The position numbers were made by a program, and so were the translations under genes. The notes under the pieces were generated by a model. The model was given only the letters and a program-made list of their open reading frames with translations. It had not been told where the DNA came from and ran no database searches. Source: Sphingomonas hankookensis (GTDB lineage: Bacteria; Pseudomonadota; Alphaproteobacteria; Sphingomonadales; Sphingomonadaceae). From it: a stretch of DNA of 64,000 bases. Below, one piece after another: positions 43,171 to 55,128 of the stretch; position 1 is the first letter of the stretch, and every line of letters starts with the position of its first letter. Location: the NCBI RefSeq assembly GCF_028551275.1, contig NZ_CP117028.1, positions 26,000 through 89,999 of the forward strand, given 5' to 3'.

Positions 43171-43206
43171 TTGACAGCCGCAACCACCAATGTTTAACGA
43201 TAAACA
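43171..43206 (+). promoter_or_regulatory. Promoter with LacI-type operator TGTTTAACGATAAACA
   Basis: TTGACA at 43171-43176 is a consensus -35 box. The -10 region (about 43194-43199) is covered by TGTTTAACGATAAACA (43191-43206), a dyad with 6-bp perfect arms and a central CG, typical of LacI-family sites. Bound repressor would block the glycosidase/importer operon. The mirrored position also suits control of lacI-ATPase. Confidence 0.75.
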
Positions 43207-43249
43207 CGCCACCCGGCAAACGGGGACGATGGAGAGGAGCGACCGGCAC

Positions 43250-44518
43250 ATGGCCGCCAAGCCGAACACCCCCCGCGCCGCGTTCCTATTGGCGCTGGCC
43301 CTGCTCGCCCCATCGCCGGCCCTCGCCCGCCCGCAAACGATTGCAGCGGCCGAACAATCGTCGTTACGCGTAACCTTCGCACACTTCGACCATCTCTACG
43401 CCGAACGCGATCTGGACGGCGAACGGGTCGGCATCCTGCATATCTACAGCGAGGCGCCCGACTATCGCTTCGCCATCGAACCGCGCGAGGGCTATACCTG
43501 CGTCGACGATGTGGCGCGCGGGATCGTCCTGCTCGCCGCCGGCGCTCCCGACGCGAAGCGCCGCCACCAGATCGAGATGCTGACCCGCTTCGTCCTGAAG
43601 ATGCAGGCGGAGAACGGCTATTTCCACAATTTCCTGTGGGGCGACGGCCGGATCAACCGCGAATACCGCACCTCGCTGGCCGAGCTGAACTGGTGGTCGC
43701 TCCGCGCGCTCTGGGGGCTGGAGGCCGCCCTGCCCCACCTCTCCCCCGACACCGCGAAGCGCGCCCGCGCGGCCGCCGACCGACTGGTCGCGAACCTCGA
43801 GCGCGACCTGCCCGTTGCCGCCAACGGGACCGTCCGCGTCGCCAACCTGATCGTGCCCATCTGGCTGCCGCTGGAGTCCGGCGCCGATGCCGGATCGACC
43901 GCGCTGCTCGGCCTGCTCCCCCACTACACTCGTACCAAGGACCCGGCGACCCGCGCGCTGATCGGCCGGATCGGTGACGGTCTGGTCCAGATGCAGGCGG
44001 GCGACGCCAAGCGCTTCCCCCATGGCGTGCATCTCAGCTGGCGCAATCAGTGGCATGCCTGGGGCAATGTGCAGGCCTATGCGCTGCTGCGCGCCGGCAA
44101 GGCGCTGAACCGACCCGACTTCACCGAAAGCGCGCTTCGGGAGGTCGATCATTTCTACCCGTACCTGCTGCGTACCGGCATGCGGTCGTCCTTCACCGTG
44201 GCGCGGACGGACAAGGGATATGTAGCGCGCGACCAACAGCGTTTCCCGCAGATCGCCTATGGCCTCGCCCCGATGATCCTCGCCGCGACCGAAGCCCATC
44301 GCCAGACCGGCAAGGCGCGCTATCGCACCACCGCGACCGCGCTCGGCCGCTGGTTCACCGGCGTCAACGATGCCAACCGCCCGGTCTACGACCCCGCGAC
44401 CGGGCGGACCTATGACGGCATCGTCGCCGCGGGGCAGATCAACCCCAATTCCGGCGCGGAATCGACCATCGAGGGGCTGTTTGCGCTCACCGTCCTGTCG
44501 GGCACGCCGCTGCCATGA
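43250..44518 (+). CDS. Secreted (alpha/alpha)6-barrel-like glycan enzyme
   Basis: A 422-residue exported protein (signal AAFLLALALLAPSPALA). The mature part is rich in amphipathic helices with repeated aromatic motifs (YTCVDDVARGIVLLAAGA, GYFHNFLWGDGRINRE, WNQWHAWGNVQAYALL-like) that suggest an alpha/alpha-toroid glycosidase, lyase or isomerase fold. I cannot assign a CAZy family. Position first in the importer operon and the periplasmic location suggest that it trims the glycan before uptake. The ATG at 43250 has a GAGAGGAG ribosome site; upstream in-frame ATGs at 43190 and 43229 overlap the operator or the leader. The stop overlaps the next start (ATGA). Confidence 0.6.
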   Translation: MAAKPNTPRAAFLLALALLAPSPALARPQTIAAAEQSSLRVTFAHFDHLYAERDLDGERVGILHIYSEAPDYRFAIEPREGYTCVDDVARGIVLLAAGAPDAKRRHQIEMLTRFVLKMQAENGYFHNFLWGDGRINREYRTSLAELNWWSLRALWGLEAALPHLSPDTAKRARAAADRLVANLERDLPVAANGTVRVANLIVPIWLPLESGADAGSTALLGLLPHYTRTKDPATRALIGRIGDGLVQMQAGDAKRFPHGVHLSWRNQWHAWGNVQAYALLRAGKALNRPDFTESALREVDHFYPYLLRTGMRSSFTVARTDKGYVARDQQRFPQIAYGLAPMILAATEAHRQTGKARYRTTATALGRWFTGVNDANRPVYDPATGRTYDGIVAAGQINPNSGAESTIEGLFALTVLSGTPLP

Positions 44519-45798
44519 CCACCCGGCGCGATGCCCTGCTGATGACGCTCGGCGGTGCGGCGCTGCTCACCGGCTGCGGAGGACGCAAGGCGGAGAAGCG
44601 CACCGACCGCATCCTGTTATGGATCGCGCCCAATGCGGCGGAGGAGAGCTTCTGGAAGATCGCCGTCGCGCGCTGGAATGCTGAGCGCCTCGGCCTGCCG
44701 GTCGACTTCACCACCATTCCCACCGCCGGCAATTCGGAGGATACCGTGCTGTCGGCACTGGTCGCCGGCACCGAACCCGATCTGTGCACCAACGTCTTTT
44801 CGGGCTTTGCGGTGCAGCTCGCCGCGCTCGGGCAGGTCGTCGATCTCGCGACGATGCCGGGCTATGATGCGCTGGTCGAGCGGCGGCACATGGCCACGAT
44901 CATGGCCGGGTGGACGCAGGGGCGACAGGTGCCCGCGCTGCCGATCTATTCCAGCCCGACGCTGTTGTGGTGGCGCGCCGACCTGCTCGACCAGCATGGG
45001 CTGGGCGAACCGCCGAAAACCTATGCCGACGTCTATCGCTTCTGCGAAGCCTATGCCGTGCGCCAGTCGCGCTACGGGATGCAGGTGATCGCCGGGCGCG
45101 CGTGGCAGGATCGCTGGTTCGATTATATCTCCTATTATTACGCCGCCAGCGGGGGGCAGCCCTATCTGGCGGGCAACCATGCGCTCTATGACAATGCGTC
45201 CGGTCTTCAGGCGGCGGGCTTCATTGACCGCATGTACCGGCAGGGCTGGACCGCGCTCGACTTCGATGCCGAGGAGCCGCTGGTGTCCGGCCTCGCCGCC
45301 GGCGCGGTGCGGGGCCCGTGGGATGTCGAGCGGTTCGCCAACATCTATCCCGAGACGCTGGAGCGGATCGCGGTCGGGCCGATGATCGCCCCGGCGGTCG
45401 GCCCCCTGCCAGCCTCGACCTTTTCCGACAGCAAGGGTGCGGTGATCTTTCGCAGCAGCCGGGTGCAGCGCGAGGCCTTCGCCTTCCTGTCCTGGGCGCT
45501 GGGCGAGGAGGCGCTGAACCTGTTGTGGTTGCAGCGCACCGGCCTGTCCCCGGCACGCGACGACCTGCTGACCAACCCCGCCTTTGCCGGTTATTATCGC
45601 GGCAACGCCATCGCCCGCGCCTATGCCGCCAATGTCGCGACCGCGCGGCCGCCGGCGCTGTCCGAACATACCATCGATATCCAGAAGATCATGAGCGCGC
45701 GCCTGGTCGAACCGCTGATGCTGGGCAGCGCCCGCCCCGCCGCTGCCCTTGCCGATGCCGTCGCGCGGACCGACCGAATGCTGGAGGTGCAGGCATGA
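44515..45798 (+). CDS. Sugar ABC importer substrate-binding lipoprotein
   Basis: A 427-residue family 1 solute-binding protein. It has a lipoprotein signal (ALLMTLGGAALLTGC), so it is membrane-tethered, and the bilobal pattern with ILLWIAPNAAEESFWKIAV, SALVAGTEPDLCTNVFSGFA and LPIYSSPTLLWWRADLLDQ. It would capture an oligosaccharide and deliver it to the permeases encoded downstream. The preceding gene overlaps its start (ATGA). A 217-base gap with a class A palindrome separates it from the first permease gene. Confidence 0.88.
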   Translation: MTTRRDALLMTLGGAALLTGCGGRKAEKRTDRILLWIAPNAAEESFWKIAVARWNAERLGLPVDFTTIPTAGNSEDTVLSALVAGTEPDLCTNVFSGFAVQLAALGQVVDLATMPGYDALVERRHMATIMAGWTQGRQVPALPIYSSPTLLWWRADLLDQHGLGEPPKTYADVYRFCEAYAVRQSRYGMQVIAGRAWQDRWFDYISYYYAASGGQPYLAGNHALYDNASGLQAAGFIDRMYRQGWTALDFDAEEPLVSGLAAGAVRGPWDVERFANIYPETLERIAVGPMIAPAVGPLPASTFSDSKGAVIFRSSRVQREAFAFLSWALGEEALNLLWLQRTGLSPARDDLLTNPAFAGYYRGNAIARAYAANVATARPPALSEHTIDIQKIMSARLVEPLMLGSARPAAALADAVARTDRMLEVQA

Positions 45799-45862
45799 GG
45801 ACAGGCGAACCCGTGTCGCGCGCGGCGGGAGCTTTGCGGAAGTCCCGACCACAGCCGCGTAC

Positions 45863-45950
45863 CGTACCCCCGCGCAGGCGGGGGTCCAGGGCACCGGTCG
45901 TAAGCCTTTATTTTGCTTGGCTCTGGACCCCCGCCTGCGCGGGGGTACGG
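45863..45950. repeat. Class A repeat inside the importer operon
   Basis: Facing arms CGTACCCCCGCGCAGGCGGG and the partner ending GCGGGGGTACGG, inserted between the binding-protein gene and the first permease gene. As RNA hairpins, such elements often protect the upstream message, favouring excess binding protein over permease. Confidence 0.9.
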
Positions 45951-46003
45951 CAAGTGCGCGGCGAAGCGGCCGACCTTCATCAAGGTTTCCCAACGGTCGG
46001 GAC

Positions 46004-46010
46004 AGGAGGT
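46004..46010 (+). promoter_or_regulatory. Ribosome binding site deciding a TTG start
   Basis: AGGAGGT is a near-perfect Shine-Dalgarno sequence located 5 and 8 bases before two adjacent TTG codons (46016 and 46019). It shows that the first permease begins with TTG rather than with an upstream ATG in the repeat region. Confidence 0.8.
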
Positions 46011-46015
46011 GCCTC

Positions 46016-46918
46016 TTGTTGAGAAAGCTCCCGTCAACGAAGCAACGCGCGCCATGGTCGCGCGAGGCCGTCATCGGGCTGTCGCTGGCCGGTGCCTATC
46101 TGCTCTTCACCGCTGTCTTCTGGGCCTATCCGTTCTTCTGGCTGGCCAAGCTGTCGGTGACGCAGTGGCGCTTCTTCGACGAACCCGTGTTCACGGGGGC
46201 ACGCAACCTGCTGATGACGCTGCAGGACCCGCAATTCCTGCAATCGCTGTGGAATGTGGTGCGGTTCCTCGGCTTCTATCTGCCAATCGCGTTCGGCGGC
46301 GCGCTGGTCGTCGCGTTCGGGTTGCGGCATGTCGGGCGCGGCAAGGGGTTCGTGGCGCTCTGCTTCCTGCTGTCGAACGTGTCGTCGGGCGTCGCGCTGT
46401 CTTTGGTGTTCGCCAAGGTGTTCAGCTCGACCGGACCGTTCAACACGATGCTGTTCGACAATTTCGGCGTGCGGGTGCCGTGGACCAACGATCCGACGCT
46501 GGCGATGCTGGCGATCGCGCTGGTCGTCGCGTGGAAGTTCGTCGGCTATTATGGGCTGATCCTCTATTCGGGGCTGCTGGCGATCCCGAAGGAAATCTAC
46601 GACGCCGCCCGGCTCGACCATGCCGGGCCGTGGACGCGGCTGACGCGGATCACGCTGCCGATGATGAATCCGCAGCTGATGATGGTGCTGACCTTTGCGA
46701 TCCTCGTATCGTTTGGCCTGTTCACCGAACCGTTCATCATCACCGGCGGCGGCCCCAGCGACAGCACGTCGACGCCGCAGATGATGATCTACGAAACCGC
46801 GTTCCGGCGGTTGCAGCCGAGCCATGCGGCGATGATGAGCATCGTCGTCGCCCTCGTTACCTATGGTCTGGTCCAGCTCGCCCGGCGGCTGTTCGAACGA
46901 AAGGTCGTGCTGGCATGA
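46016..46918 (+). CDS. Sugar ABC importer permease, MalF-like
   Basis: A 300-residue inner-membrane permease with six transmembrane segments and the EAA-loop pattern IYDAARLDHAGPWTRLTRIT LPMM near residue 210, which docks on the ATPase. It is a CUT1 family member (MalF class). It starts with TTG after a strong ribosome site. The stop overlaps the second permease start (ATGA). Partner subunits are the binding protein upstream, the MalG-like permease and the divergent MalK-like ATPase. Confidence 0.9.
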   Translation: MLRKLPSTKQRAPWSREAVIGLSLAGAYLLFTAVFWAYPFFWLAKLSVTQWRFFDEPVFTGARNLLMTLQDPQFLQSLWNVVRFLGFYLPIAFGGALVVAFGLRHVGRGKGFVALCFLLSNVSSGVALSLVFAKVFSSTGPFNTMLFDNFGVRVPWTNDPTLAMLAIALVVAWKFVGYYGLILYSGLLAIPKEIYDAARLDHAGPWTRLTRITLPMMNPQLMMVLTFAILVSFGLFTEPFIITGGGPSDSTSTPQMMIYETAFRRLQPSHAAMMSIVVALVTYGLVQLARRLFERKVVLA

Positions 46919-47754
46919 AGGCGTTCCTTGCCAAACGCAGCGTGGGCGGATGGATCGCGACCATCGCCATCTATGCGCTGGCGCTGACCTGGCTCTATCC
47001 CTTCGCCTGGATGGTCGCCGCGTCGCTCAAACCCGACGCGCAGATCTATAACACCGCCCTGTTCGAAGGGGACTTCACCCTCGACAATTTCGCCTTCCTG
47101 CTGGCGACCGCTGACAAGCTCGACCGGCCGTTCCTGGGGGCGCTCGGCATCTCGGCGCTGGTGACGCTGACCGTGACCGCATCGGTGCTGCTGACCTCGG
47201 GCTTCATCGCGTTTGCGCTCGCGCGGATGCGGTTTCCGGGGCGTAAGATGTTCGGCGATTTCCTGCTGCTGCAGATGGTCATCCCGACCAGCATGTTCAT
47301 CCTGCCGCTGTTCGTGCTCGTCAAGGAAATGGGCCTGCTCAACAGCCTGTGGGCGCTGATCCTGCCGTCGATGATGTCGGGATGGGGCATCTGGATGATG
47401 GCGCAGTCGTTCAGGACGATGCCCGAGGAATATTTCGACGCCGCCCGGCTCGACCGCGCGAGCCTGTGGCAGACGGTGACGAAGATCGTCGTGCCGCTCA
47501 ACAAATCGATCATCGCGATCGTCGCGCTGTTCACCTTTACCGGCACGTGGGACAATTTCCTGTGGCCGCTGATCGCGATTTCGGACACCGACCGCATGCC
47601 GCTGTCGGTGCTGCTGGCGACGTTCAGCAAGCAATATGGCGGCTATGCCGGGCCGGTGATGGCCGGCGCGGTGTTGCAGACGCTGCCGCTGGTCCTGCTC
47701 TTCCTCCTTTTCCGGCGGCATTTCCTGCAAGGCATGTCGCTCTCGCTCAAATAG
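46915..47754 (+). CDS. Sugar ABC importer permease, MalG-like
   Basis: A 279-residue second permease with six transmembrane helices. The first one (IATIAIYALALTWLYPFAWM) leads into the MVAASLKPDAQIYN segment common to MalG proteins, and the EAA loop reads EEYFDAARLDRASLWQTVTK followed by IVVPLNKS. It pairs with the MalF-like protein to form the channel. It is followed after 9 bases by the GH130 gene. Confidence 0.92.
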   Translation: MKAFLAKRSVGGWIATIAIYALALTWLYPFAWMVAASLKPDAQIYNTALFEGDFTLDNFAFLLATADKLDRPFLGALGISALVTLTVTASVLLTSGFIAFALARMRFPGRKMFGDFLLLQMVIPTSMFILPLFVLVKEMGLLNSLWALILPSMMSGWGIWMMAQSFRTMPEEYFDAARLDRASLWQTVTKIVVPLNKSIIAIVALFTFTGTWDNFLWPLIAISDTDRMPLSVLLATFSKQYGGYAGPVMAGAVLQTLPLVLLFLLFRRHFLQGMSLSLK

Positions 47755-47763
47755 GACGCCCCC

Positions 47764-48822
47764 ATGCTACAGCGTAGTCCGCGCAACCCCATCGTCGCGC
47801 CCGAAACCGTGCGCCCGAGCCGTCCGGGCTGGCGGATCGACGGCACGTTCAACGCCGGCGTCACCCGCTATGGCGAGGAGACGATCCTGCTCGTCCGCGT
47901 CGCCGAAAGCGTGATCGCCGACGATCCCGACACGGTGATCGTGCCGCTGCTGGAGGAGGCAGGCGGCGCATGGGGCTGCACCACCCGCAGCTTCCGCCGC
48001 GACGATCCGGCCTATGATTTCAGCGATCCGCGCATGGTGCGCTCCCGCGCCGACCCGCGCGAGGTGTTCCTGACCTCGCTGTCGCACCTTCGCCTCGCGC
48101 GCAGCAGCGACGGCGCGACCTTCGTAGTCGACGACGCGCCCTTCCTGTTTCCCGCCAACCGCAGCGAGCGTTTCGGGTGCGAGGATGCGCGGATCACGGT
48201 GATCGAGGGGCGGTGGTACATCAACTATACCGCGGTGTCCGACCTCGGCATCGCGACCGCGCTGGCGGTCACCGACGATTTCGTGTCGGTCGAGCGTCTG
48301 GGCATCATCCATGCCCCCGACAATCGCGACGTGTGCCTGTTCCCCCGGCGGATCGGCGGCCATTACTGGTGCCTGCACCGCCCCGCGCCGCTGCACCTCG
48401 GCACGCCCGAAATCTGGATCGCCAAGTCGCCCGACCTGCTCCACTGGGGTGACCATCGCCACCTGTGCGGACGCAGCGGCGATGGGTGGGAGGCGATGAA
48501 GATCGGCGGTGGTGCGCAGATGATCGAGACCGACAAGGGCTGGCTGCAAATCTATCACGGCGTCGATGCGAAGCAGCGCTACAGCCTCGGGGCGCTGCTA
48601 CTCAACCGCGACGACCCGCGCGTGATCGTCGCGCGGCTTGCACAGCCGCTGGCCGAGCCGGTCGAACCCTATGAAGTCTCCGGCTTTTTCGACCAGGTCG
48701 TGTTCAGTTGCGGCGCGCTGGTCGAGGGCGACGAACTGCGCGTCTATTATGGGGGGGCCGACCGGGTGATGGCGCTCGGCACGGTTTCCCTGGGGAAACT
48801 CTGGCAGGCGATGGGGCTGTGA
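47764..48822 (+). CDS. GH130 beta-mannoside phosphorylase
   Basis: A 352-residue five-bladed beta-propeller enzyme of family GH130, which uses phosphate to split beta-1,4- or beta-1,2-mannosides to mannose 1-phosphate. The catalytic Asp lies in RFGCEDARITVIEGRWYINY; other family landmarks are VAESVIADDPDT, FSDPRMV and WLQIYHGVDAKQRYSLGAL. No signal peptide, so it is cytoplasmic and acts on sugars imported by the ABC system. Linkage specificity cannot be read from sequence. The last codons contain a parS-like palindrome (48784). Confidence 0.85.
   Translation: MLQRSPRNPIVAPETVRPSRPGWRIDGTFNAGVTRYGEETILLVRVAESVIADDPDTVIVPLLEEAGGAWGCTTRSFRRDDPAYDFSDPRMVRSRADPREVFLTSLSHLRLARSSDGATFVVDDAPFLFPANRSERFGCEDARITVIEGRWYINYTAVSDLGIATALAVTDDFVSVERLGIIHAPDNRDVCLFPRRIGGHYWCLHRPAPLHLGTPEIWIAKSPDLLHWGDHRHLCGRSGDGWEAMKIGGGAQMIETDKGWLQIYHGVDAKQRYSLGALLLNRDDPRVIVARLAQPLAEPVEPYEVSGFFDQVVFSCGALVEGDELRVYYGGADRVMALGTVSLGKLWQAMGL
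48784..48799. other. Orphan parS-like palindrome inside a gene
   Basis: GTTTCCCTGGGGAAAC differs at one position from the four perfect GTTTCCCCGGGGAAAC palindromes near parB, some 40 kb away. It lies in the last codons of the GH130 gene and could be an outlying ParB site or coincidence. Confidence 0.4.
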
Positions 48823-48836
48823 TGCACGGAGGATCG

Positions 48837-49781
48837 ATGCACGAAACCGACATTCCGCGCGTCCGCACCCGCTACGAAGCCTTTGCGCAGGGGGCGACGC
48901 CGGCACGGACCGAGCGGCTGATCTTCGCCGGATTCGACGGGCTGGACGTCTACAACATCTCCGCGCCGTTCGTATCGGCCGGACGGCGGGTGATCGCCGG
49001 ACGGGTCGAACCGCGCGACAGCGAACATTCGCTGGCCGTCTTCTTCGAGGAAGTGGACGGCGTGTGGCATCCGATCGCCGACGCGCCGCGCTTTCCGCTA
49101 CAGGACCCGTTCGTCACCTTCATCGGCGGCGAGCTGGTGTTCGGCGGCGTCGCGGTCCGCTTCGGCGAAGGGCTGCCCGAATGGTGGACGGAATTTTATC
49201 GCGGGGCCGACATCTTCTCGCTTGCGCCGTTCTTCGCCGGCCCGCTGGGGATGAAGGACATCCGGTTGTGCGAACGGGCCGACGGGCGCGTCGCGGTGTT
49301 CACCCGGCCACGTGGCGCCAAGGGCGGGCGCGGTACGATCGGATATACCGAGGTCCCCTCGCTCGATGCGCTGTCGGTCGAGGCGATCGACGCCGCACCG
49401 ATGCTTGGGGGCATGTTCCACCCGCTCGACTGGGGCGGGGTCAACGAAGCGCATCTGCTGGCGAACGGCGAAATCGGCCTGATCGCGCACGCGGCCTATT
49501 TCGAGGACGATACGATCCATAGCGCGCGGCATTATTATGCCGTCGCCTTCGTGTTCGATCCGGCGACCCGGCGCTGGCGCGACCTGAGCGTGATCGCCGG
49601 GCGTGGGCAGTTCGGCCCCGGTGCGGCGAAGCGGCCCGATCTGGTCGATGTGGTGTTCTCGTCGGGGATCGAGCAGATCGACGGCGTGACGCGGCTCTAT
49701 GCCGGCACCTCGGATGCGGAGGCGCATTGGGTCGAGATTGCGTATCCGTTCGATGTGCCGTTGGCGGCGGCCACCCCCTGA
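48837..49781 (+). CDS. DUF1861 beta-propeller protein
   Basis: A 314-residue cytoplasmic protein that I match to DUF1861, a predicted five-bladed propeller. Typical segments are FAGFDGLDVYNISAPF, AGRVEPRDSEHSLAVFF and LDWGGVNEAHLLANGEIGLI. Many members sit beside GH130 enzymes, and the fold is related, so it may also act on a mannoside, but no reaction is established. The ATG at 48837 has a GGAGG ribosome site; an earlier in-frame ATG at 48822 overlaps the GH130 stop. It is the last gene of the importer operon. Confidence 0.7.
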   Translation: MHETDIPRVRTRYEAFAQGATPARTERLIFAGFDGLDVYNISAPFVSAGRRVIAGRVEPRDSEHSLAVFFEEVDGVWHPIADAPRFPLQDPFVTFIGGELVFGGVAVRFGEGLPEWWTEFYRGADIFSLAPFFAGPLGMKDIRLCERADGRVAVFTRPRGAKGGRGTIGYTEVPSLDALSVEAIDAAPMLGGMFHPLDWGGVNEAHLLANGEIGLIAHAAYFEDDTIHSARHYYAVAFVFDPATRRWRDLSVIAGRGQFGPGAAKRPDLVDVVFSSGIEQIDGVTRLYAGTSDAEAHWVEIAYPFDVPLAAATP

Positions 49782-49889: not shown

Positions 49890-51296
49890 TCACTCCAACC
49901 CCAACGCCACCCGGTCCGCCGTCGCCGCCGCCAGTTCGGCGCGCGCCGCCGCGATCCTCGCCTGGGCGTCGATGAGGCGCACGCGGGCGTCGTTCGCGGT
50001 TTCCTCGCGCTGGTTGACGAGGAAGAAGTCGCTCGACCCCAGTTCGAACCGCCGCCGCTCGGCATCGGCCAGGCGTTCGGCCAGCGCGCGTTCCTGTTCG
50101 GCGACGGCCGCCAGTCGTTCCGCCGCGCCGACGCCGATCAGGATCCCCTCGACCTCCACGGCGATCTGGTCGCGCACGAAGCGCCCGCGTGCGTTGAGCG
50201 CATCGATCTCCGCCTCCGCCTCGCTCACCTTGCCGCGCGCGGCGCGGTTCTGCAGCGGGATCGAGAAGCGGAAACCCACTGCCGCCTCCAGCGGGGTGCG
50301 CGAACTGCCGCCCAGTCCCGGCGGACCGATATCCTTGCCCACCTCGCCGCGCAGGTCGAGCCGGGGGCGCAAGTCGTTTTCCGCGAGCGCCAGCTTCGCC
50401 AGCCCCTGATCGACCCGGGTCAGCAGCACCTGCAGATCGGGGCGGCGCTGCGCCACGTCGCCGACCGGCGCGACCACCCGCGGCCCGACCAGCGCGTTGC
50501 TGTCGCCCGGCAACCGCTCCGCGCCGACCAGCAGCGGATTGCCCGCCGCGTCGCGATAATAGAGCGACAGCGCATTGGCCGCCGCCTGGAAATCACCCTC
50601 CGCCTTCACCACCAGGCCACGGCGGCGGACGAGGTTCTGGTCGTTCTCGGTCAACAGGATGTCGGGCCGCGCGCCCAGTTCGATCTGCCGCGCGATGCCG
50701 CCGCGGCGCCGTTCGGACAGGTCGAGCAGGTCGCGATAGGCGCGCAGCCGCTGCCCGGCGGCGACCCAGTTCTGGTACGCGTCGACCGCGCGACGCTGCA
50801 CCCCGATCGCCGTCGCCTCGCGTTCGAACCGGGCGATGTCGATGTCCCCGCCGGCCAGGGTGCGGCGGGTGCGGCGTTCGTCGACCAAACGGTCACGCAT
50901 CAGGGAATAAAGTGCCCCAACCTTCACCTCGCCCAGGCGGTTGGTGTAGAATTCGTCCTCGTACACCGGAAAGTCGCCGCGGGTGACGCGGTAATTGCCG
51001 TAGAGATAGCCGCCATTGTCGCCCATCGGCCGCGTCGCCCGCCCGCTGACGACGGTGCCGTCATAATAGCCGAGCGCGCGGGATTTGCCCTCCGCCTCGA
51101 ACACGGTGTCGAACGCGCCCTCGGCGGTGAGCGCGCGGCCCTCCGCCGAGCGGATCTTTGCCAGCGCCTCGATGATCTGCGGCGCGGCGCGGGCGGAGGA
51201 GCGCAGCACCTCGTCCAGCGTCAGCGGCGCGGCGGCGGGCTGCGCCAGCGCGGGGACCGGTGCCAGCAGGGCAAGGGCAAGCGCGGCGCGGATCAT
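49890..51296 (-). CDS. TolC-family outer-membrane efflux protein
   Basis: A 468-residue outer-membrane channel protein with a signal peptide (IRAALALALLAPVPALA). It shows the duplicated TolC layout of long helices and short barrel strands, for example [20 protein letters not shown] in the first half and GKVSEAEAEIDALNARGRFV in the second. It would form the exit duct for the HlyD-like adaptor and ABC protein encoded upstream in the same operon. The ATG overlaps the HlyD gene stop (ATGA). Confidence 0.88.
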   Translation of the reverse strand: MIRAALALALLAPVPALAQPAAAPLTLDEVLRSSARAAPQIIEALAKIRSAEGRALTAEGAFDTVFEAEGKSRALGYYDGTVVSGRATRPMGDNGGYLYGNYRVTRGDFPVYEDEFYTNRLGEVKVGALYSLMRDRLVDERRTRRTLAGGDIDIARFEREATAIGVQRRAVDAYQNWVAAGQRLRAYRDLLDLSERRRGGIARQIELGARPDILLTENDQNLVRRRGLVVKAEGDFQAAANALSLYYRDAAGNPLLVGAERLPGDSNALVGPRVVAPVGDVAQRRPDLQVLLTRVDQGLAKLALAENDLRPRLDLRGEVGKDIGPPGLGGSSRTPLEAAVGFRFSIPLQNRAARGKVSEAEAEIDALNARGRFVRDQIAVEVEGILIGVGAAERLAAVAEQERALAERLADAERRRFELGSSDFFLVNQREETANDARVRLIDAQARIAAARAELAAATADRVALGLE

Positions 51297-52369
51297 TTGG
51301 GCTTCCCCGCCTTCGCCGCGATCTTGGCGGTATCCTCCTCCTTCGCGCCGTCCTTGGGGGTCGTGACATTGCCGAATTCCAGCGGGAAGTCGTTCAGCTG
51401 GCGCCACAATTCATAGCCGACCGTGACCGTCTCCCCCTGCACCCAGCCCTGCACCTTGCCGCCCAGGCGGACATAGCGGCCATCGGGCCAGGCGGGCTTG
51501 CCCGGCGCGGGTTCGACGATGATGCGGAACAGCCCCTGCAGATTGGCATTGGGATCGATCGTGCGCACCCGCCCGTCGAAGAAGCCATAGGCGACCGAGG
51601 GCCATCCGCTGAACTGGATCGCGGGCCAGCCTTCGAATTCCAGTCGCACCGGACGGCCGGGCTTGAGCAGCGGCACGTCGCGCCCGTCGATCAGCAGCTC
51701 GACCGCGCGTTCGACCCGTTCGGGGGCGATGGTGGCGAGCGCGGTGCCCGCCGTGACCAGCGCGCCGGAGGCGGCGGCGTTCAGGTTCTGGATACGGCCG
51801 TCGCGCGGTGCCCGGACCAGCTGCGCCGACTGGCGATTGAGCTGCACGTTGATGCGGTTCAGTTTGGCGCGGGAGTCCGCCAGCTTCGCTGCGGCTTCGG
51901 CGACCTTGATCTGCGCCAGTTCGAAATCGCGCCGCGATCCCAGCCCCTCGGCCAGCAGCTGCCGGGTGCGCGCGACATCGATGTTGGCGACCGAGCGCGC
52001 CTGTTCGATCGCCTGGATTTCGGCCTCGACCTGCGCGCGTTCGGCCGACAGGCGGCTGAGCAGATCGGGGTCGAGGTCGACGACGCGGGCGATCGGGGCG
52101 CCCTTGTCGACATGCTGCCCGTCCTGGACATACCATTGCACGACCCGGCCGGGGACCAGTGCGGTCACGTCCTGCGCGCGGTCCTGCGGGTCGAGCGCGA
52201 CGACGGTGCCGCGCCCGCGCGCGGTCTGCAACCACGGCACGAGGAACATGATCGCGACCGCGACCGCGATGCCGATGGCGATCAGCCACGCGACCACGAC
52301 GCCGACGCGCGGCGGGCGCAGCCTGGCCAGCGTGCGGAAATGGGCGAGATGTTCAGGCCGACGCATCAT
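51293..52369 (-). CDS. HlyD-family periplasmic adaptor
   Basis: A 358-residue membrane-fusion protein. There is one transmembrane helix (VGVVVAWLIAIGIAVAVAIM), a lipoyl half-motif pair (VTALVPGRVVQWYVQDGQHV and LVRAPRDGRIQNLNAAASGA) flanking a long coiled-coil hairpin (residues 100-200), and a beta-barrel domain. It bridges the inner-membrane ABC protein and the TolC-like channel. It overlaps the ABC gene by 17 bases. The cargo is unknown, and no RTX or bacteriocin gene lies nearby. Confidence 0.88.
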   Translation of the reverse strand: MMRRPEHLAHFRTLARLRPPRVGVVVAWLIAIGIAVAVAIMFLVPWLQTARGRGTVVALDPQDRAQDVTALVPGRVVQWYVQDGQHVDKGAPIARVVDLDPDLLSRLSAERAQVEAEIQAIEQARSVANIDVARTRQLLAEGLGSRRDFELAQIKVAEAAAKLADSRAKLNRINVQLNRQSAQLVRAPRDGRIQNLNAAASGALVTAGTALATIAPERVERAVELLIDGRDVPLLKPGRPVRLEFEGWPAIQFSGWPSVAYGFFDGRVRTIDPNANLQGLFRIIVEPAPGKPAWPDGRYVRLGGKVQGWVQGETVTVGYELWRQLNDFPLEFGNVTTPKDGAKEEDTAKIAAKAGKPK

Positions 52370-54047
52370 CGCCCCCCTCCTGTGCCAGCGTGGCGCGCAG
52401 CTCGTCGAGCGACGCGAAGCGCCGCTGTTCGTCGGTCCCCAGATGCAGATAGCCGTCGAGCGCCATATCCTCCGGCCGGCCGGTGAACAGCAGCACGGTG
52501 GTGCCATGCCGCTGCAGTTCGGCCAGCGCCGCGCGCAGCCGTTCGGGCGGCAACAGGTCGAACAACTGACCGAGCAGCAGCAGCTTCGGCCGCACCAGCA
52601 GCGCATTGGCGAGCTTCAGCGCCATCGTTTCGCCGATGCTGAGCGGATAGCCCGACGCGCCGAGCGGCGTGTCGAGCCCCTGCGGCAGGCTGGCGAGGCG
52701 GCGTTCGAGGCCGACGGTCGCCAGCGCCTCACCCGCCTCCAGCGCGCGTTCGCCCTGCCCGCCGGTCGCAAGCCGCAGATAGTCGCGGATCGTCACGTCG
52801 ACGATGGTCGCGCGGTCGAGCACGGTCACGTCGGAGCGCAGCTGATACATGTCGAGCGCGCCGAGATCGGCACCGCCGACGCGGATCAGCCCGCGTTCGG
52901 GATGGACATGGCGTTTGAGCAGCAGCGCGAGCCGCCGTTCGCTACCCGGTTCCGCCACCACCACCAGCTGTTCGCCGGCCGACAGGCTCAGGTCATAATG
53001 CGCGCCGTCGAGCACCAGCCCGGTCATCCGGACCGCCCCGTCGCGCGGACCGCCCTCGCCGCGCTGGTCGGGTTCCTGGGGAATCGCGAACAGCAGCGAC
53101 AATTCCTCCGAACTGGCGGTCAGGTCGTAAAAGGTGTCGAGATACCAGCCCAGCTGCGAGATGCCGTAGAACACGCCCGACAGGATCAGCTCCGCGGCGA
53201 CCAGCTGGCCCAGCGACAATTGCCCGCGCAGGATCAGCGTGCCGCCCAGCAGCAGCAGCGCGGCGCTGGCAAAGGCATAGACCAGCAGGAAGGCGATGGT
53301 CTGGGTGAACTGGTAGCGGAAATATTTGCGGTGCGCGCCGACATAGGTCGCGGTCACCGCCTCCGACCGGTCCATCGCGAACGCCAGGTGGCGCGACGAT
53401 TTGTAGAAGCCGTTCGACCCGCCGACGCTTTCCAGCCAGCGCGCGGTATTGTGCTTGGCATGGCTGAGCGCGACCGCGCCGGTGATCGCCCCGCTTTGCC
53501 ACAACAGCCAGATCAGCACGACGGTGCCGACCAGCACCGCGTTGAAGGCGAGGAAGAAGGGGTGGTAGAAGCTGGTGATGGTCAGGCCGACCGCCGCCTG
53601 CAACACGATGGTGAAGGCGCCGATCACCAGGCTGGGGATCGCCTTCTGCACCACGACCAGGTCGAAGAAGCGGTTGAACAGGTCGCCGCGATTGGCGTCG
53701 GCGAAGAACGGGTCCTGCGCATGGACCGCGCGCAACGTCACCTCCGCCACCACCCGCGCGAACACGCGGCGTTCGAACGCGGCCATGATCCACACGCGCA
53801 GCGCGCTGAGTGCCGCGACCAGCAGCAGCAGCACCAGCAGCACGCCCGACAGCGCCCAGAGCGGGGCCGGCATCGCGGTATTGGCGACGCTGTTGATCAG
53901 CAGCTGGACCGAGATCGGCGTGGCCAGCGCCAGCAGGCTGATCGCGACGGTATAGACCAGCCCTAACCGGACATAGGCGGCATCGGGGCCGATGATCTGC
54001 GCCAGCCACCCCGCCGCATCCCTGAAACCCAGTCGTTTCGCTGCCAC
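52353..54047 (-). CDS. ABC exporter-like protein with degenerate ATPase domain
   Basis: A 564-residue half-transporter: a six-helix type I exporter membrane domain (residues 30-310) and a C-terminal domain with the outline of an ATPase but without its motifs. Where Walker A belongs there is VVVAEPGSERRLALLL (no GK[S/T]); Walker B reads KLLLLGQLFDLL (no Asp-Glu); the signature is LSIGE; the Q loop has no Gln (VTVLDRAT) and the H-loop position reads LLFTGRPED. It is first in an operon with HlyD-like and TolC-like genes. ATP hydrolysis seems impossible from this chain alone. The GTG at 54047 follows a GAAGAGG ribosome site; an ATG at 54134 has none. Confidence 0.8.
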   Translation of the reverse strand: MAAKRLGFRDAAGWLAQIIGPDAAYVRLGLVYTVAISLLALATPISVQLLINSVANTAMPAPLWALSGVLLVLLLLVAALSALRVWIMAAFERRVFARVVAEVTLRAVHAQDPFFADANRGDLFNRFFDLVVVQKAIPSLVIGAFTIVLQAAVGLTITSFYHPFFLAFNAVLVGTVVLIWLLWQSGAITGAVALSHAKHNTARWLESVGGSNGFYKSSRHLAFAMDRSEAVTATYVGAHRKYFRYQFTQTIAFLLVYAFASAALLLLGGTLILRGQLSLGQLVAAELILSGVFYGISQLGWYLDTFYDLTASSEELSLLFAIPQEPDQRGEGGPRDGAVRMTGLVLDGAHYDLSLSAGEQLVVVAEPGSERRLALLLKRHVHPERGLIRVGGADLGALDMYQLRSDVTVLDRATIVDVTIRDYLRLATGGQGERALEAGEALATVGLERRLASLPQGLDTPLGASGYPLSIGETMALKLANALLVRPKLLLLGQLFDLLPPERLRAALAELQRHGTTVLLFTGRPEDMALDGYLHLGTDEQRRFASLDELRATLAQEGGDDASA

Positions 54048-54195: not shown

Positions 54196-54210
54196 ATAGT
54201 CTGCGACTAT
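54196..54210. promoter_or_regulatory. LysR-type palindrome ATAGTC-N3-GACTAT
   Basis: ATAGTCTGCGACTAT is a perfect 6-bp inverted repeat with the T-N11-A pattern of LysR-family sites. It ends 9 bases before the lysR-type start and lies in the divergent gap to the ABC operon, so it probably serves autoregulation and control of that operon. Confidence 0.65.
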
Positions 54211-54219
54211 AGCCGCGCC

Positions 54220-55128
54220 ATGCCCACGCTGCGTCAGTTCGAATATCTGGTGACCATCGCCGACACCGGATCGTTCGCGCTGGCGGCGCGGGTGGCGCAT
54301 GTGTCGCAACCGACGATGAGCCAGCAGGTCCGCGCGCTCGAAGCGCGGCTGAACGTCCAACTGGTCGAACGCGGGGCCGGCGGCGCGGTGCTGACCCCGG
54401 TCGGGCGCAGCATCGTGACGATCGCGCGGCGGATGCTGGCCGATTCGCGCGACATCGCCGCGCTGGCGGCAGGCGCCGCGCACGGGCTGACCGGGACGAT
54501 CCGGCTCGGCACCACGCCGACGCTCGGCCCCTATCTGTTGTCGCCGATCATCGCCGACCTGCACCGGCGCGCGCCGAACCTGCGCCTGCAGGTGCGCGAG
54601 GGGATACCGGAGGAACAGGCGCTGGAATTGTCGCGCGGCGAGCTGGACCTGCTGCTCGGACCGCTGCCGATGGCGGGCGACGACCTGACCGTCGAGCCGC
54701 TGTTCCGCGAACCGCTGTACCTCGTCGCCGCGCTCGACCATCCGCTAGCCGCCGGGGGAGAGGTCGCGGAGCGGGCGCTGGCGGGCCATGCGCTGCTGAC
54801 GCTCGACCCGCGCCACCACCTTGCCCGGCAGGCGGCCGAGCTTGCCGCGCGCCACGACATGACCGTCGCCCCCGATTATTACGGCACCAGCCTCGAAAGC
54901 CTGCATCAGATGGTGGCGAGCGGGCTCGGCCTCGCGCTGCTGCCCGGCCTGTATCTGCGGCGCGATGCCAACCGGGCGACGGGGCTGAAGCGGTTGGCGG
55001 TACAGGGCTGGCGCGTGCATCGCTCGATCGCGATCGCCTGGCGCCGCCAGTCGCCGATGGACGCCGCATTCCGGCTGATCGCCGACCAGGTGCAGGCAAG
55101 CGCGCGGCAGGTGCTGGGCGATAGCTGA
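54220..55128 (+). CDS. LysR-family regulator, OxyR-like
   Basis: A 302-residue regulator with an N-terminal HTH (RQFEYLVTIADTGSFALAAR, VSQPTMSQQVRALEA) and an effector domain (GTIRLGTTPTLGPYLLSPII). Overall it resembles the OxyR branch, but it has no cysteine in the region of the OxyR redox pair, so it cannot sense peroxide in that way. It is divergent from the ABC/HlyD/TolC operon, its most likely target, with a LysR-type palindrome in between. Confidence 0.88.
   Translation: MPTLRQFEYLVTIADTGSFALAARVAHVSQPTMSQQVRALEARLNVQLVERGAGGAVLTPVGRSIVTIARRMLADSRDIAALAAGAAHGLTGTIRLGTTPTLGPYLLSPIIADLHRRAPNLRLQVREGIPEEQALELSRGELDLLLGPLPMAGDDLTVEPLFREPLYLVAALDHPLAAGGEVAERALAGHALLTLDPRHHLARQAAELAARHDMTVAPDYYGTSLESLHQMVASGLGLALLPGLYLRRDANRATGLKRLAVQGWRVHRSIAIAWRRQSPMDAAFRLIADQVQASARQVLGDS

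Follow-up and report, generated by a model that had tools for sequence, protein, structure and literature searches.

The ATPase is the defining part of ATP-binding cassette (ABC) transporters, and in heterodimeric exporters with a degenerate site one composite site stays complete. In type I secretion an ABC protein stands together with a periplasmic adaptor and an outer membrane factor (HlyB-HlyD-TolC). A precedent for an exporter without a motor is LmrA-MD, the purified LmrA of Lactococcus lactis without its nucleotide-binding domain (NBD), which is reported in the available parts of two papers to be a secondary-active ethidium-proton symporter, and in which the replacement E314A in transmembrane helix 6 (TM6) abolished dependence on the pH gradient and kept that on the membrane potential (PMC2704374, PMC6155054). 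The second of these papers reports ion currents in full-length LmrA that are set off by ATP binding; the same conditions gave no currents with LmrA-MD (PMC6155054, in part). The subject here is an ABC-HlyD-TolC operon in a 64,000-nucleotide stretch of Sphingomonas hankookensis DNA (the window, from a genome of 3.95 Mb in 4 contigs). The ATPase motifs of its ABC-like protein are gone, and hence export without ATP is predicted.

The three genes overlap one another at 49890-54047 on the minus strand, in the order given by an earlier note on this DNA. The operon and two of the altered regions are as follows.

49890..51296, minus strand: TolC-family outer membrane factor, 468 residues, from profile matches
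51293..52369, minus strand: HlyD-family periplasmic adaptor, 358 residues, from profile matches
52353..54047, minus strand: ABC-exporter-fold protein with degenerate NBD, 564 residues, GTG start, from sequence, homologue alignment and model
52563..52586, minus strand: former Walker B region, KLLLLGQL, residues 488-495, from sequence and conserved loss
52932..52955, minus strand: former Walker A region, AEPGSERR, residues 365-372, from sequence and conserved loss

The adaptor gene overlaps the ABC-like gene by 17 nucleotides, and its stop codon is fused with the TolC start in an ATGA overlap. The GTG at 54047 is the ABC-like start favoured by homologues, starts being assigned to the codon nearest to the aligned residue, and motif residues are numbered on the resulting 564-residue reading; a 593-residue reading from 54134 was rejected, as it exceeds the length that homologues support. 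GTG or TTG, not ATG, is the apparent start in 44 of the 56 aligned ABC-like genes.

The ABC-like protein has a transmembrane domain (TMD, approximately residues 8-320) and an NBD (approximately 335-550), and its frame has neither stops nor frameshifts. The ABC exporter fold (type IV ABC, six transmembrane helices and an NBD) was recognized by a full-length structural match to solved exporters, and Pfam still matches both domains (ABC_membrane 30.9 bits, cut-off 28; ABC_tran barely, 26.4 bits, cut-off 25), as expected from the earlier note, which had described an open frame with membrane domain and NBD outline kept. The elements of a functional ABC ATPase (Walker A, Walker B, Q-loop, signature, and H-loop) are not intact. 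The P-loop reads AEPGSERRL, which lacks GK[ST] and is shorter by one residue; the alignment is ambiguous by one residue here, so that the lysine position is occupied by Glu370 or Arg371. In Walker B (LLLLGQ) the Asp is replaced by Gly and the Glu by Gln, the Q-loop Gln has become Asp411 and the H-loop His Gly523, and the signature is LSIGE, in which Ser and one Gly are retained. The earlier statement that Walker A, Walker B, the Q-loop, and the H-loop are altered therefore holds in the residues of all four. The protein very probably does not hydrolyze ATP.

The earlier note had proposed that homologues beside HlyD and TolC genes be collected, and in this collection the degenerate motifs are conserved. 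When each species was represented by one genome, 58 sphingomonad relatives of 53-100% identity were found, all 58 with degenerate motif windows (a 59th locus, L063, matches at 31% over the NBD alone and is outside the 58). The window and 55 of these form 56 close rows (alignment A1), from which L055 (contig end), L061 (frame broken near the N-terminus), and L005 (Sphingomonas hankookensis CN3, with an ABC protein identical to that of the window) were left out. In L061 (6001-7691, a draft contig of Sphingobium sp. Ant17) the N-terminal part is apparently in another frame, by frameshift or assembly error. The NBD is likewise degenerate in 44 of 44 NBD-bearing loci out of 45 further ones, L100 (no NBD) being left out of the counts, and 111 database proteins were added, these being the NBD-bearing ones among the best 120 of 729 matches to the L100 protein; their named organisms are Pseudomonadota. 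The total of 211 NBD-bearing rows includes one identical duplicate and near-copies.

When identical alignment columns are compared, the P-loop GK is present in 34/34 intact exporters and 0/56 close rows, and Walker B DE, LSGGQ, and the H-loop His are each present in 33/34 intact exporters (the 34th is a cut fragment) and 0/56 close rows. Any GK near the P-loop is confined to 1/44 loci and 5/111 listed database rows (0/56 close rows), always outside the motif. None of the rows (0/211) has the pattern G-x(3-5)-GK[ST], and an LSGGQ-like signature is found in 0/56, 0/44, and 0/111. Hence a close homologue with intact motifs, which the earlier note regarded as the mark of a simply dead copy, was not found among the 211 rows. 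Nor was a fully intact ancestor of the family, the least eroded member seen being L190. Searches for the nearest intact relatives with the sphingomonad profile covered the class (385 genomes at 1e-40 and 192 at 1e-15) and the phylum (299 genomes at 1e-22); the next matches below the family scored at most 88.6 bits (class) and 96.9 bits (phylum), and those inspected had intact motifs. With a Bacteroidota profile (249 genomes), the matches next below the family score from 174 bits downward and cover part of the protein.

The operon is conserved with the motif loss. HlyD is present in 58/58 sphingomonad loci (neighbor clustering had joined 56) and TolC in 57/58, the exception being a 3.2-kb contig, and all three genes occur in 20/21 distant loci (L108 is cut by a contig end) and in 7/7 further loci. 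The ABC-like gene is under purifying selection. For 20 independent pairs, picked greedily among the close rows so that protein identity is 87-98%, the ratio of nonsynonymous to synonymous substitution rates (dN/dS, Nei-Gojobori) is 0.015-0.101 for the TMD and 0.045-0.169 for the NBD. The TMD is conserved above the NBD in 617/617 pairs at 50-68% identity (the pairs are not independent), and in three pairs of intact type I secretion ABC proteins the reverse is seen, with the NBD above the TMD. Motif loss across 211 rows and purifying selection together support the earlier view of a conserved pseudo-ATPase rather than decay.

The window system has ABC, HlyD, and TolC genes together, as in type I secretion, and differs from it in lacking the ATPase motifs; a conserved substrate gene adjoining the operon was not seen in 58 loci. 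Its ABC protein scores far below the cut-offs of all three type I profiles (TIGR01846, 94.9 bits against 725.55; TIGR03375, 83.9 against 693.1; TIGR01842, 50.4 against 510.15), as do the adaptor (TIGR01843, 78.4 against 208.65) and the TolC protein (TIGR01844, 42.8 against 225.15), which places neither in the type I subfamilies; the best profile of the adaptor is RND_mfp (90.8 bits, cut-off 94.9). With 564 residues against the 744 of L002, an HlyB-type protein of the same genome (TIGR01846, 984.7 bits, cut-off 725.55), the ABC protein of the operon also lacks the N-terminal domain of HlyB-type proteins. Many family proteins carry the database label 'ABC transporter ATP-binding protein'. One member may already be in the literature, as HlyBD2-OMP2 of Blastomonas fulva T2, described as an HlyB-type ABC pump (PMC9505733). 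Membership of the window family is suggested by its gene lengths (1659, 1053, and 1503 bp), by its gene order, and by its resemblance to Novosphingobium aromaticivorans, from the description and not from sequences. The part of that report available to us does not mention motif loss, and Walker occurs in the text solely as the name of an author (PMC9505733). The titles and abstract beginnings of the literature searched, in which subscription journals are thinly covered, gave no description of this family or of natural NBD-less ABC exporters.

Such exporters do occur in the family. The ABC-like gene of L100 stops after TM6 (333 residues), its TGA overlaps the ATG of HlyD, and TolC follows. Among the best 120 of 729 matches to its protein, 111 bear an NBD and 9 are short, and of the latter at least seven are NBD-less members, P0243 (L100 itself), P0244, P0273, P0275, P0280, P0315, and P0322, on contigs of 31.2, 32.8, 329, 3.9, 6.9, 25.1, and 13.4 kb, respectively; this count leaves out P0270 (on a 1.1-kb contig) and P0339 (in which the beginning of the NBD is still there). 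As read from their sequences, natural loss of the NBD is complete in the seven listed members. A maximum-likelihood tree of 95 TMDs (hand-picked rows) puts 85 family members on one side and 10 intact exporters on the other, and the NBD-less state takes three changes on it, at least two of which are forced by starred branches; the tree comes from a quick search, with a long outgroup branch and a long-branch warning within the family. One of 11 carriers in the GTDB family of genome G084 is NBD-less. These NBD-less genes are the strongest genomic argument for an ATP-free system.

Family carriers make up 60/297 genomes of the order (four family codes) and 3/385 of the class (1e-40), the latter all from the window's own family. 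In the phylum sample, degenerate members scoring 490-506 bits were found in three genomes of another class, which the named relatives Oceanicoccus, Pseudohongiella, and Agarilytica suggest to be the Gammaproteobacteria, and 9/370 genomes of that class are carriers. One of these nine is the distant L190, which retains Walker A (GGPGTGKSS) and Walker B (LILDE), has the signature LSSSQ, and has lost the H-loop His and Q-loop Gln. More distant relatives were reached by tblastn against plasmids (Persicobacter L154 and Aureibacter L155) and by a search with the Persicobacter protein, the best 120 of whose 6944 matches (P0123-P0242) are Bacteroidota where named. In these 120, the P-loop GK is present in 117, the Walker B DE and LSGGQ in none, and the His in 1, the Walker B being mostly like LLILNDFF; several are labeled 'peptidase domain-containing ABC transporter'. 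They are likely a second pseudo-ATPase group that at most binds ATP. Arranged by degree of loss, the members run from both Walker motifs through the P-loop alone and no motif to absence of the domain, and this gradation points to a path of motor loss, for which root and step order are not established.

Read from sequences and a model, what the family has in common is an exporter fold, conserved loss of catalytic motifs, a conserved three-gene operon, and the family-specific residues Glu286 and His162. Glu286, in the TM6 helix (279-320), is present in 341/341 rows, and His162 (in the turn between TM3 and TM4), Lys198, and Gln249 are invariant or nearly so, while intact exporters, including those of type I secretion, mostly have Asn and Ser in the places of Glu286 and His162. 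The family thus resembles LmrA-MD in combining an exporter membrane domain without a working NBD with a TM6 carboxylate, functionally required in LmrA (PMC2704374 and PMC6155054, in part). LmrA-MD is man-made and not tripartite; in the window family the motor was lost in nature, and this conserved loss goes together with HlyD-TolC. The carboxylates of the two probably differ in position, and ion coupling in the window family would be by analogy.

The preferred explanation, for and against which we consider the chances about even, is that the system exports its cargo with no hydrolysis of ATP and that an ion gradient across the inner membrane probably powers it. The TMD homodimer would alternate or gate access without ATP, protonation of Glu286 and His162 or a related ion site would, by analogy with LmrA-MD, couple it to the proton- or sodium-motive force, and HlyD and TolC would take the cargo directly out. 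The retained NBD would be a structural or dimerizing clamp, a role with which its conservation in most members and its dispensability in some lineages would agree. How this arose can be proposed only tentatively, and at somewhat less than even chances: an ABC exporter lineage would have dropped catalysis, then the P-loop, and then, in several branches, the whole domain, leaving an ion-driven pump that feeds HlyD-TolC. If this is true, an exporter membrane domain is able to work alone in nature, the LmrA secondary-transport proposal can be put to a direct test on naturally evolved proteins, and there is a new ABC-fold, non-ATP class of tripartite pumps as a counterpart to those of the resistance-nodulation-division (RND) and major facilitator superfamily (MFS) types.

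Several points weigh against ion-driven export. Glu286 and LmrA Glu314 are probably different positions: by residue spacing, not alignment, Glu314 lies 74 residues before the Walker A Lys388 of LmrA and Glu286 approximately 85 before the corresponding place (LmrA numbering from partly available sources). In the inferred topology Glu286 and His162 are placed nearer to the periplasm and could serve adaptor docking or gating instead, and the absence of currents in LmrA-MD (PMC6155054, in part) advises caution in any simple transfer to the window family. The sole NBD-less gene viewed with its neighbors, L100, is in a draft genome of 250 contigs. The NBD is selected in most members and hence has some role, at which the model only guesses, and ATP binding may matter in part of the family, given the Walker A and B of L190 and the GK of 117 of the 120 listed Bacteroidota-type proteins. 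Motif loss is also not wholly uniform, in that the Walker B DE is found in 0/56 close rows, 0/44 loci, and 1/111 listed database rows and a His in the H-loop window in 0/56, 3/44, and 15/111, and P0293 and P0312 satisfy two of three loose motif tests; all three are satisfied by 0/211.

The motif loss and the NBD-less members would also suit a gated passive conduit or scaffold, in which the TMD dimer is a ligand-opened channel or anchor and a periplasmic or membrane-derived substrate enters HlyD-TolC without energized pumping from the cytoplasm. This alternative, which is unlikely but to be taken seriously, also accords with the presence of HlyD and TolC in nearly all loci on sufficiently long contigs and with the inferred periplasmic orientation of the most family-specific residues, Glu286 and His162. 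A permanently open pore in the inner membrane would be harmful to the cell, however, and a moving machine is suggested by how strongly the NBD and Lys198, which lies in a long helix reaching the cytoplasmic side in the inferred topology, are constrained.

It is improbable that the protein is the pseudo-half of a heterodimer in which an intact ABC half-transporter encoded elsewhere hydrolyzes ATP. The hydrolysis site of an ABC dimer is composite, and when both of its parts are lost no complete site is left; here the P-loop and Walker B are gone and the signature is mostly so, although LSIGE still holds Ser and one Gly, and neither composite site would be complete. Degenerate sites are frequent among heterodimeric exporters (PMC7756269, in part), but the window family differs from TM287/288, TmrAB, and BmrCD of that report in the joint loss of these elements and in having no linked partner gene: a second ABC gene was found neither among the conserved neighbors of 58 loci nor, by family profiles, in 28 further loci. 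Candidates elsewhere in the genome do exist, as three other proteins have an exporter membrane domain (E 0.01), and their translations show both Walker motifs and an LSGGQ or LSGGE signature intact; the earlier description of the window protein as the only ABC protein holds for the operon. Two of the three read as MsbA-like and Atm1-like and may still be partners. The third, L002, has an orthologue (E ≤ 1e-100) in 1/12 carriers of the genus, this being the window's genome itself, and in 2/19 non-carriers; it rarely co-occurs, is therefore not an obligate partner, and was rejected as a candidate. Together with the at least seven members that have no NBD, these results weaken the partner ATPase that the earlier note had offered as an option beside another energy source and a gated conduit.

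Still less probable is an ATP-sensing regulator, in which the degenerate NBD binds nucleotide and only sets the gate, without hydrolysis; L190 and the GK-bearing Bacteroidota-type relatives described above speak for it, and the window branch without a P-loop and the members without the whole domain speak against it. Ordinary decay would make this a type I secretion ABC protein that is dead and heading for loss; it has in its favor the weaker constraint on the NBD as compared with the TMD. It is very improbable, being contradicted by degenerate motifs across 211 rows from several families, open frames, an NBD dN/dS of at most 0.169, and the retained operon, unless selection works solely through expression of the HlyD and TolC genes.

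Regulation of the operon is suggested by two features upstream of it.

54196..54210, no strand: palindrome ATAG-N7-CTAT between the LysR gene and the operon, arms conserved, spacer variable
54220..55128, plus strand: divergent LysR-family regulator without cysteine, from sequence and orthologues

LysR is a neighbor in 26/58 loci (63-100% identity, divergent in 25), and apart from it no conserved fourth gene or substrate gene stands beside the operon in the 58 loci, substrates encoded elsewhere not having been sought. The palindrome is upstream in 17/27 LysR-linked loci (16/26 without L005) against 1/31 others, with an expectation of 0.002 per shuffled 260 bp (shuffles preserve base composition only), and the LysR protein may control expression from this site. 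A second block like TTCCGATTGG is seen nearer the operon in several of nine upstream regions, the palindrome being by the LysR start (54196-54219). One record labels a LysR orthologue 'hydrogen peroxide-inducible genes activator'. OxyR senses peroxide through a thiol pair, and as the window LysR and 8/26 orthologues (L005 included) are free of cysteine, sensing of this type is unlikely.

In one Sphingobium plasmid and two genomes of a distant family, genes for DabA and a DabB-like proton antiporter (the inorganic-carbon uptake pair) adjoin the operon and LysR (L157:1-3911, L191:648-4464, and L192:174-3964); DabA PF10070 scores 731 bits in L157 and 608 bits in L191, and L192 was recognized by BLAST only. 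A function in carbon uptake was rejected, since the pair is beside the operon in only 3/122 loci. Over the membrane domain (residues 31-361), P0001 scores 128.6 bits with phrog_2392 ('ABC transporter', moron/auxiliary metabolic class), against a Pfam membrane-domain score of 30.9; a phage link was dropped, as the ten listed rows of a tblastn of L190 to phages are all partial and 22-26% identical. The gene is also carried by 14 sphingomonad plasmid or megaplasmid records (H1-H14), most typed non-mobilizable, and is thus not restricted to main chromosomes. Immediately past the downstream end of the operon (43190-49781), the other strand carries apparent genes for a sugar-binding lipoprotein, two permeases, and carbohydrate-active enzymes, as judged by reading the sequence.

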